64,000 nucleotides of DNA, taken from Candidatus Scalindua japonica (GTDB lineage Bacteria > Planctomycetota > Brocadiia > Brocadiales > Scalinduaceae). Under the pieces are notes generated by a model. That model had not been told where the DNA came from. It saw only the letters and a program-made list of their open reading frames with translations, and searched no databases. Positions 20,798 through 24,300 of the stretch are shown piece after piece. The stretch covers positions 62,001-126,000 of the forward strand of contig NZ_BAOS01000013.1 in assembly GCF_002443295.1 (NCBI RefSeq). The letters run 5' to 3'. A program made the translations under genes and the position numbers. Numbering within the stretch: the first letter of the stretch is position 1; each line of letters starts with the position of its first letter.

Positions 20798-21013
20798 ATG
20801 CATAATGAATTTACTGCTATTATTGAGAAAGATGAAGATTGGTATATTGCATACTGCCCTGAGATCCCAGGAGCTAATGGTCAAGGCAAGTCACACGATG
20901 AGTGTAGAGAAAATCTCGCTCAAGCCATCTCCTTAATTCTTGAAGAACGTAGAAACGATGTTTTAAGTGGCATACCAGAGAATGCAATAAAGGAAGTTGT
21001 TACAATAAAATGA
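20798..21013 (+). CDS. hicB: HicB-type antitoxin
   Basis: 71 residues beginning MHNEFTAIIEKDEDWYIAYC, followed by PEIPGANGQGKSHDECRENL and AQAISLILEERR. This is the partial RNase H-like fold of HicB antitoxins, which bind and block HicA. It lacks a separate DNA-binding domain, being of the short form. It is coded before its toxin, the reverse of the classical hicA-hicB order, and overlaps it by 4 bp (ATGA). Confidence 0.9.
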   Translation: MHNEFTAIIEKDEDWYIAYCPEIPGANGQGKSHDECRENLAQAISLILEERRNDVLSGIPENAIKEVVTIK

Positions 21014-21195
21014 AAAGGTATGCACTACTTAAACATCTGCGTAAATATGGATGTTTTCTGAAAAGAGAAGGAAGTTCACACTCATTATGGTGCAATCCAA
21101 ATACAGGTCATGTAGAAGCAATTCCCAGACACAATGAGATCCCCAACAAACTAGCAAAAAAGATTGTTAAATCTTTGAATTTACCTGAATTATAA
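21010..21195 (+). CDS. hicA: HicA-type toxin
   Basis: 61 residues: MKRYALLKHLRKYGCFLKRE, then GSSHSLWCNP...AIPRHNEIPNKLAKKIVKSL. The GSSHxLW histidine segment is the catalytic part of the double-stranded RNA-binding-like mRNA interferase HicA. Codon overlap with hicB ties their translation. The pair sits just outside the right end of the tRNA island. Confidence 0.9.
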   Translation: MKRYALLKHLRKYGCFLKREGSSHSLWCNPNTGHVEAIPRHNEIPNKLAKKIVKSLNLPEL

Positions 21196-21690: not shown

Positions 21691-22293
21691 ATGAATAATT
21701 TGTTTAAAATAAAATACAAACTAATCATTAGTTGTTTATGCATCGTTATCGGTTGCTCACATGCACCTTACCGTTATAGTTTTTCCCTTATTGATCCACA
21801 AAGTGAAACGATGAGTTTTGAGGATCAAGATGTTCATTTTTCATTTATACCGTCTGCTGAAAATATACAGGTAGTAATAAAAAACAAGAGTGATTGTAAT
21901 ATAGATCTTATTAGAGATAAGGCTGAGTTTATAGACCATATTGGTGAATCCTACATCATTCATTATGGTTATGATTATGTATCAGAGGTAAGATCCTATA
22001 AAAGTAATCTAAGATATGCGACTCCAATGAGGATAAGGCCGGGAACAGAAATAATGGGACATGTCTGGATAAATGATTGGCCACACTTTCTCTTAGGAGA
22101 GGGCCCAGATCACTCACCCATGTCAGCGTACAATATAGACAACCTGAAGGAACCTCTCTTCCCAAGATACAGCTTTGAAGGAAAAGGTAAGGCCTTAAAA
22201 GGTTCAACCTTTAAATTGATCCTGCCAATTGATTGCGACGGAAAAATAACCAGCTATGATTTTACGTTTATGATAAATGATGTAATGAAATAA
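21691..22293 (+). CDS. Hypothetical lipoprotein, 200 aa
   Basis: The N-terminus (KIKYKLIISCLCIVIGC) is a type II signal peptide with Cys at about residue 22, so the product should be lipidated and kept at a membrane. The mature part is beta-rich, with HFSFIPSAENIQVVIKNKSD, RPGTEIMGHVWI and a final FKLILPIDCDGKITSYDFTF, suggesting an immunoglobulin-like fold of the kind that carries LEA or FxLYD domains. No firm family. It stands upstream of the CsrA-fusion gene on the same strand, 139 bp away. Confidence 0.65.
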   Translation: MNNLFKIKYKLIISCLCIVIGCSHAPYRYSFSLIDPQSETMSFEDQDVHFSFIPSAENIQVVIKNKSDCNIDLIRDKAEFIDHIGESYIIHYGYDYVSEVRSYKSNLRYATPMRIRPGTEIMGHVWINDWPHFLLGEGPDHSPMSAYNIDNLKEPLFPRYSFEGKGKALKGSTFKLILPIDCDGKITSYDFTFMINDVMK

Positions 22294-22432
22294 AAATCGA
22301 AAAATAATAGTTATTATGATATCGTCTTCTATAAGTCTATTATATCAGGTATAGTGTCCCCCAATTAATTGATTATACGATTATATTTATATTGTAGGTT
22401 ATATATATGATTATATAAGAAAGGTATTAAAT

Positions 22433-23530
22433 ATGGATACATATGAAAAGTGGTTTGACAAAGTGGAGGCAGAGAAAGAAGAGGCTGAAGCAGATGACAT
22501 TAAAAACAAGTTGAATGACAAAGTGCAGGCAGAGAAAAAACAGACTGAAGCAGACGACATTAAAAACAAGCTGAATGACAAAGTGCAGGTAGTGAAAGAA
22601 CAGACTGAAGCAGAGGGGATTGAAAACAAGTTGAATGACAAAGTGGAAGAAGAAACAAGGCTATCTGACATAATTCCAGAAGTGATTAAGTCACCTGGCA
22701 AATCTGAAGTTAAAAAAAATCTGTGTGACAATGAAGAAGACAAGAAAAAACTGGTTGCCGAAAATGAAACAAAAGAAGCATTGAGTGAGAAGCAGGACGA
22801 GAAAATAGGCCATCTGCAAAAGTATAAGAAGAAATTAAGTGATCTGATAAAATCCAGATCAAACAAAAAACCACCTGTCAATGTCAAGCCGAAGGATAAA
22901 CCAAATGATCAAATAAAAGTTTTTGAATTTTCAAAAGATATTAGTACCGTCGAAATAATATATGATATTTGGACAAAAGATGTTCAATTGAAAAACCGTG
23001 TTTTAGTTGTTGAAAACAACTTAGACAAAAATGGTTTTAAAGACGAGATGCTGACAATGATCAAGACTTCAGGAATTGATTATATAATTGCTCCGGGTTT
23101 CGAAAAAGGGTTTTACGAGAAAGCATCTGACGCAGAATTACAACTAATAGAATGTAGTGATACAAAGTTGATAGACGAAGGAATGAGTATCATGGTGTAT
23201 AGGGAAGCAGGTGTAATCTTTGACGTAGACAATGGGCAAGAATTTAAATTCACGCTTATGACAGATTCAGTACGGAAAAATATACTACAAAAAATAAGCT
23301 TAGAAGTTGGAGAAAGTGTACTAATCGGTAATGACTTATCGATAAGAGTCTTAGATATAGAGAAAGACCAGAGCAAAATATGTATTAATGCGTTAAAAGT
23401 AGTTACGGCCTACCCACAAAAATATCTTACGATTGGTGATGAAATTAGAATAATAATTTTCAAAATAATCCCATATCAGATTAAATTAGGAATTGAGGTT
23501 CCAGAATGCATAACCATAAACAGGCAATAG
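22433..23530 (+). CDS. Coiled coil + LeuD/aconitase-swivel-like + tandem CsrA-like protein
   Basis: 365 residues with a layout I have not met. Residues 11-70 are three 20-residue repeats (VQAEKKQTEADDIKNKLNDK and variants). A charged helical linker runs to about 160. Residues about 186-287 follow the small subunit of 3-isopropylmalate dehydratase: NRVLVVENNL, IKTSGIDYIIAPGFEKGFYE, KASDAELQLIEC, GVIFDVDNGQEFKF. The loop that should carry the substrate-binding G-C-G-S-S-R-E is replaced by LDKNGFKD, so no dehydratase activity is expected. Residues about 288-330 (VGESVLIGNDLSIRVLDIEK) and 331-365 (YLTIGDEIRIIIFKI, KLGIEVPECITINR) each resemble CsrA/RsmA, the translational regulator that binds GGA in mRNA leaders. 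The gene is monocistronic. An RNA-binding regulator with a metabolic-enzyme-like sensing domain is an inference only. Confidence 0.7.
   Translation: MDTYEKWFDKVEAEKEEAEADDIKNKLNDKVQAEKKQTEADDIKNKLNDKVQVVKEQTEAEGIENKLNDKVEEETRLSDIIPEVIKSPGKSEVKKNLCDNEEDKKKLVAENETKEALSEKQDEKIGHLQKYKKKLSDLIKSRSNKKPPVNVKPKDKPNDQIKVFEFSKDISTVEIIYDIWTKDVQLKNRVLVVENNLDKNGFKDEMLTMIKTSGIDYIIAPGFEKGFYEKASDAELQLIECSDTKLIDEGMSIMVYREAGVIFDVDNGQEFKFTLMTDSVRKNILQKISLEVGESVLIGNDLSIRVLDIEKDQSKICINALKVVTAYPQKYLTIGDEIRIIIFKIIPYQIKLGIEVPECITINRQ
22463..22642 (+). repeat. Three 60-bp tandem repeats in the CsrA-fusion gene
   Basis: Three in-frame 60-bp units encode the 20-residue coiled-coil repeats. Units 1 and 2 are closest; unit 3 has drifted. 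Copy number could vary between strains without frame loss. Confidence 0.8.
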
Positions 23531-23973
23531 ATGTTGAGTTTAGAGTTAGTAGTTCTTTTAATTGTCTATTTCACTACAGTTTGCTCCAATTGAATCTTTG
23601 CTAATATTATCTCTGGTATTTTCGGCAAGACGCCAAAAACTTCTTGTTGATAGTAGCTGAGTGTTGTTATTTTTCTAATCTGCTCAATGACACTGATGCC
23701 TTAAAGAGATGTGATCAGGATTTTTGTATCAACAATAAATCACGTATTACAGGATAGTTCAAGTTTTGCTTGATTTTTCTATAATACAGAATAGAATGAA
23801 ATGAGTACATTTAGAAGAGATATGTTTTCTAACTTAAGTCATCTAAGAAGGTTATCTGCCACAAAGATATTCTCAGAGCAGGCAGCTTCAAGCCTCAAAA
23901 TGATAACCTCATTGACTGTAACAGCAAGATGCAATAGAATTTAAGAACATTATGAAAGGAGAATAGTAAGATA
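23531..23973. other. Intergenic stretch upstream of the thioredoxin gene
   Basis: About 440 bp without a coding frame I can support. It should contain the promoter of the thiol-redox genes. Confidence 0.4.
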
Positions 23974-24300
23974 ATGTCAAGCTTACAGGCAGTAACAAAC
24001 GAAGATTTTGAACAAACTGTCATTCAGGCGAGTACGCCTGTCATGGTTGATTTTTACGCGGAGTGGTGTGGCCCATGCAAGACACAGGGCCCTATTCTTG
24101 GCCAATTAGCTGAGGAATTTGATGGGAAGGTCAAATTTGTAAAAGTAGATATAGATGTAGAAGGGAATAAAGATCTGGCGGTAAAATATGGTGTCCTGTC
24201 TGTGCCTACCCTCATACTTTTCAGTAATGGTGAAGTGAAGGAAACAATGGTGGGAGTCACAAGCAAGAGCAAACTTAAGCAAAAACTTGAAGAGATTTGA
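23974..24300 (+). CDS. trxA: Thioredoxin
   Basis: 108 residues, standard for thioredoxin. VMVDFYAEWCGPCKTQGPIL holds the redox-active C-G-P-C (32-35) and is followed by the usual KVDIDVEGNKDLAVKYGVLS and the cis-proline in SVPTL. It reduces protein disulfides in the cytosol, drawing on thioredoxin reductase. A GAAAGGAG ribosome site is present. It precedes a DsbD/CcdA-like membrane protein that commonly takes electrons from thioredoxin, suggesting a shared electron route to the periplasm. Confidence 0.95.
   Translation: MSSLQAVTNEDFEQTVIQASTPVMVDFYAEWCGPCKTQGPILGQLAEEFDGKVKFVKVDIDVEGNKDLAVKYGVLSVPTLILFSNGEVKETMVGVTSKSKLKQKLEEI

Follow-up and report, generated by a model that had tools for sequence, protein, structure and literature searches.

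What a chain that joins an enzyme-like domain to the RNA-binding regulator CsrA might do is the question raised by one open reading frame of Candidatus Scalindua japonica, here designated P0001 and found within a 64,000-nucleotide stretch of the genome (contig NZ_BAOS01000013.1, positions 62,001 to 126,000), which is referred to as the window. The initial annotation had read this frame as 20-residue repeats, taken for a coiled coil, followed by a part similar to LeuD, the small subunit of isopropylmalate dehydratase, and by two CsrA-like segments, the whole being envisaged as a metabolite- or redox-sensing translational regulator. As summarized in Table 1, the open reading frame was indeed present. 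The probability that its 366 codons stay open by chance was calculated to be about 2e-11 at the base composition of the window, and the GC contents at codon positions 1, 2 and 3 (0.46, 0.23 and 0.34, respectively) follow the pattern of a gene. From the N-terminus, the encoded protein consists of a repeat region (residues 1-158), a LeuD/aconitase-swivel domain (residues ~161-283) and two fused CsrA units (residues 284-365). An assembly join in P0001 is unlikely, because the junction lies in frame and at a domain border. Chance similarity as the source of the domain matches was ruled out by the E-values and the relatives, and the LeuD swivel-CsrA layout was confirmed as correct and above chance. 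The N-terminal repeats proved to be real; as regards the putative coiled coil, strong hydrophobic positions number only three in the 20-residue unit.

Table 1. Features of P0001 and its upstream region (coordinates in the window)
Feature	Position	Strand	Basis
P0001 open reading frame, 365 aa with stop	22433..23530	+	ORF call
Shine-Dalgarno-like AAGAAAGG, 8 nt 5' of the P0001 ATG	22417..22424	+	sequence
Residues 1-158, charged, containing repeats, without family match	22433..22906	+	profile search
In-frame tandem repeat of 60 bp (20-residue units), 3.2 copies, 89% match	22456..22645	+	
Degenerate LeuD/aconitase-swivel, residues 161-283	22913..23281	+	profiles, hhalign, model, Foldseek
Residues 195-206 (NNLDKNGFKDEM), where the NFGCGSSREHAP active-site loop has been lost	23015..23050	+	LeuD alignment
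CsrA half 1 (beta1-beta4), residues 284-320; L4/R6/R7 positions = I288/L290/E291	23282..23392	+	
Shared strand KVVTA, residues 322-326; placed by sequence as beta5 of half 1 and by structure as beta1 of half 2	23396..23410	+	
CsrA half 2 (beta2'-beta5'), residues 331-365; R364 = E. coli R44	23423..23527	+	

To the C-terminal part, the Pfam CsrA profile (PF02599) was matched over residues 285-365 in two stretches (E = 7.3e-15, 55 bits against a cut-off of 27), and the NCBIfam profile PRK01712 was matched at 1.4e-14; with 53.8 bits, P0001 stays below the NCBIfam CsrA equivalog cut-off of 73 bits. The two CsrA segments of the initial annotation were thus recovered, but the second is not a complete unit, as half 2 has no beta1 of its own. 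PilZ or another fold at the C-terminus, considered there as the alternative, gave no match in the Pfam and NCBIfam profile searches. An AF2 model of the CsrA part, built from a shallow alignment of four sequences, reached pLDDT values of 72-87, and its residues 321-365 overlaid residues 1-45 of CsrA at 1.4-1.9 Å, from which it follows that the shared strand sits as beta1. The Z scores of this model to CsrA were modest and the best VIA-align Z belonged to unrelated beta proteins; the CsrA assignment is therefore carried by the sequence evidence.

In CsrA, whose sheet order is beta5A-beta2B-beta3B-beta4B-beta1A (PMC3791407), each RNA site combines beta1 from one protomer with beta5 from its partner, and L4 and R44 are critical (PMC7652899). 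P0001 resembles CsrA, RsmA and RsmE in that its halves belong to the same sequence family, R44 is kept and a beta-sandwich is predicted, but differs from them in carrying two units per chain which share a strand, in lacking the C-terminal helix, in having lost R6 and R7, and in the single RNA site predicted for it. On the published CsrA topology, one RNA site would be lost because the fused halves share one strand: beta5 of half 1 would be identical with beta1 of half 2, so that the site formed by those two would disappear, leaving as the only one in the chain the site to which half 1 contributes beta1 and half 2 beta5. Such a one-site chain would be able to block one GGA site, yet unable to bridge two. 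That the chain mimics a full two-site CsrA dimer is unlikely given the shared strand and the predicted loss of one RNA site; the statement that no second subunit is needed holds as a sequence layout, in which both CsrA units lie in one chain. Another rearranged CsrA-family fold is that of RsmN (RsmF) from Pseudomonas aeruginosa, whose structures (4krw and 4k59) align with the P0001 model over 51 residues at 2.4-2.7 Å. RsmN carries an extra helix separating beta2 from beta3 and remains a dimer of two chains (PMC3791407), whereas the corresponding part of P0001, judged from both sequence and model, has strands only and no such beta2-beta3 insert.

As to the residues of the remaining site, the equivalent of R44 is present in half 2, the whole LGIEVPECITINR segment is intact, the L4 position shows a conservative change to I288, and R6 is not kept, its position being taken by L290. 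Since R44 and an aliphatic residue at the L4 position are retained but R6 and R7 are not, the affinity or specificity of P0001 is probably shifted at this site, and RNA binding is plausible in a weakened or altered form.

Free-standing fused CsrA pairs of 85-95 aa were found in Scalindua, in one Brocadiaceae and in one genus inferred as Pirellulaceae. They comprise a pair in the genome of P0001 itself (L002), those of Scalindua sp. OFTM180 (L007), S. arabica (L009) and a Brocadiaceae MAG (L034), and pairs of ~90 aa in all 6 sampled genomes of the inferred Pirellulaceae genus (L195 1501-1773, L196 1501-1767, L198, L207 and L240-L243); in the pair of Scalindua G051 (L035 1489-1773, minus strand), half 2 is broken close to its end by an in-frame TAA. 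Each stand-alone pair checked contained two Pfam CsrA stretches, and each half scored against canonical CsrA about as well as, or better than, it did against its partner half. Based on these at least comparable matches to canonical CsrA, the pairs are, as judged from their sequences, fusions of two CsrA units, for which a single origin in Scalindua and Pirellulaceae is not established. Among seven stand-alone pairs, R6, E10, S11, I14 and the LGI..P motif of half 2 were invariant and the place of R44 was occupied by R or K in all, with not one invariant column in the shared strand. This conservation, namely an invariant R6, R or K at position 44 and a variable shared strand, fits the one-site reading, and the fused pair may thus represent a natural one-site CsrA. 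In the open-access literature searched, no papers on fused CsrA pairs or on the P0001 layout were found.

The middle domain was matched by the NCBIfam LeuD profile TIGR02084 over residues 189-282 (E = 9.8e-10), its 38 bits falling short of the equivalog cut-off of 245.85 bits, and a phmmer search matched P0001 to the LeuD structure 3vba. In hhalign, the two degenerate swivels of this study aligned with five canonical LeuD over 120 columns (E = 8e-18), and the identity of the P0001 swivel to LeuD was 21-27%. A Pfam aldolase match to this domain (PF01081) was short and below its cut-off (E = 0.006), LeuD being far better. In Foldseek searches with a model of the swivel alone (pLDDT 75), the top 11 matches were LeuD structures, with the swivels of aconitase and IRP1 ranking lower; the LeuD-like fold of this model was partly guided by two LeuD rows in its shallow alignment. 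AF2 on a joint construct of residues 157-365 left the fold of the swivel unresolved (pLDDT < 50), and Foldseek with that joint model returned nothing significant. TIGR02084, hhalign and Foldseek thus uphold the identity of the LeuD-like part, which had initially been placed at residues 186-287; by alignment with LeuD, it starts at about residue 161.

Despite sharing the swivel fold with LeuD (TIGR02084; 3vba and 2pkp) over ~120 alignable columns, the domain differs in its fusion to CsrA, in its score far under the equivalog cut-off, and in two missing segments. In the alignment with the five canonical LeuD of the order, the GCGSSREHAP loop, the GCGSSRE portion of which had already been reported as lacking, was missing throughout from the P0001 swivel, and the segment of ~20 aa that follows ARYLN (YLNT...HCMEDID) was absent as well. 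With both LeuD loops lost, the substrate-binding elements are gone. In the isopropylmalate dehydratase family, the Fe-S ligands sit on LeuC, the large subunit. A LeuC-type large subunit is absent from the P0001 chain, and a profile search detected no Fe-S cluster domain in its 365 aa. As the genome retains an ordinary LeuD (L004), the P0001 swivel constitutes a second copy, which judging from its sequence is presumably catalytically dead; it would serve neither as catalyst nor as Fe-S sensor. The swivel fold also connects P0001 to IRP1 and aconitase by weak Foldseek matches (3snp and 3sn2), but P0001 lacks their Fe-S domains with the three Cys ligands, and its RNA-binding part would be CsrA rather than the swivel. 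A lone degenerate swivel of 120 aa (P0002; L006 1507-1869) adjoins a purE-like gene in another Scalindua; it shows 39% identity, passes the Pfam Aconitase_C cut-off (27.7 bits against 22.8) and carries a remnant of the active-site loop, NFGKSSSKE, as an intermediate motif. No CsrA remnant was present downstream of it in any of three frames.

We consider the chances about even that P0001 is an accessory post-transcriptional regulator, in which a dead enzyme domain, serving as a scaffold or to bind partners, is combined with a one-site single-chain CsrA. The dead swivel, together with the charged N-terminal repeats, would then provide a scaffold, oligomerization or partner docking. It is rather unlikely that the CsrA part no longer binds RNA and that the chain instead acts as a scaffold for proteins or antagonizes canonical CsrA or its partners: the replacement of R6 and R7 by L290 and E291 in a near-neutral domain (pI 6.4) would suit such a role, as would the protein surfaces offered by the acidic swivel (pI 4.5) and the charged repeats, but R364 and the entire LGIEVPECITINR segment are retained, and GGA is read largely via backbone amides in the RsmN and RsmE structures (PMC3791407).

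Meanwhile, the genomic setting bears on whether P0001 is functional at all. Downstream, the order trxA-DsbD_TM/CcdA-nifS is conserved in Scalindua; upstream of trxA (window 23530-23974), the four Scalindua relatives examined each had different DNA, and the P0001 locus is a variable stretch. A lipoprotein gene without Pfam match (200 aa, window 21691-22293), whose family occurs in many Brocadiales and is multicopy in some, lies on the other side, and a HicB/HicA-like pair named by inspection (window 20798-21195) is located 0.5 kb upstream of it. The full domain order was found in 0 of 74 other genomes of the class and in none of 392 genomes sampled across the phylum; the swivel-CsrA fusion was seen in one genome only. 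Several lone fused pairs adjoin transposase, toxin-antitoxin or restriction genes (named by inspection), and the surroundings of P0001 and the lone pairs look like accessory gene traffic. At L002, a ParE/ParD-like toxin-antitoxin pair (825-1369) adjoins the fused CsrA gene directly, and a transposase fragment lies upstream (both named by inspection). A phage or plasmid origin of P0001 was rejected: matches were obtained only to the LeuD part, and of the CsrA homologues on viral contigs none spanned both halves.

The confinement to one genome, the variable site upstream of trxA, the recent-looking DNA repeats and the in-frame TAA in the related pair of G051 would all be expected of a young, drifting fusion, in which a mobile CsrA pair and a dying LeuD copy met by chance with little or no function. 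We nevertheless regard this as unlikely, since 365 codons have stayed open behind a clean ribosome-binding site with gene-like codon-position composition, and since the core residues of the P0001 domains are kept at 33-39% identity to their relatives, a level that points to a long history of constraint. The reading originally proposed, a translational regulator that senses metabolites or redox state through the swivel, is quite improbable: enzyme-derived domains joined to RNA-binding domains are a common sensor layout and aconitases moonlight as RNA binders, but both active-site loops of LeuD are gone, the Fe-S cluster belongs to the absent large subunit, no Fe-S domain is present, and the cysteines are only four and scattered (98, 241, 317 and 359).

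The accessory regulator with a one-site CsrA thus remains our preferred reading of P0001, and the family of fused, probably one-site CsrA is a more general result than the P0001 fusion. More tentatively, planctomycetes may possess a natural family of single-chain one-site CsrA whose protomers share a strand, one member of which has come under the control of the dead aconitase-type swivel in one Scalindua, yielding a monovalent, tunable translational regulator. The contribution of bridging through two RNA sites, as opposed to one, has been addressed by engineering mixed dimers of CsrA (Mercante et al., 2009, as described in PMC7652899). If the one-site reading is true, a natural family with a fused dimer minus one site would render the bridging question testable in vivo, and a natural one-site CsrA would be a ready monovalent tool. 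The LeuD-CsrA fusion, for its part, shows how an enzyme fold stripped of its active site has been put to new use in an RNA regulator.
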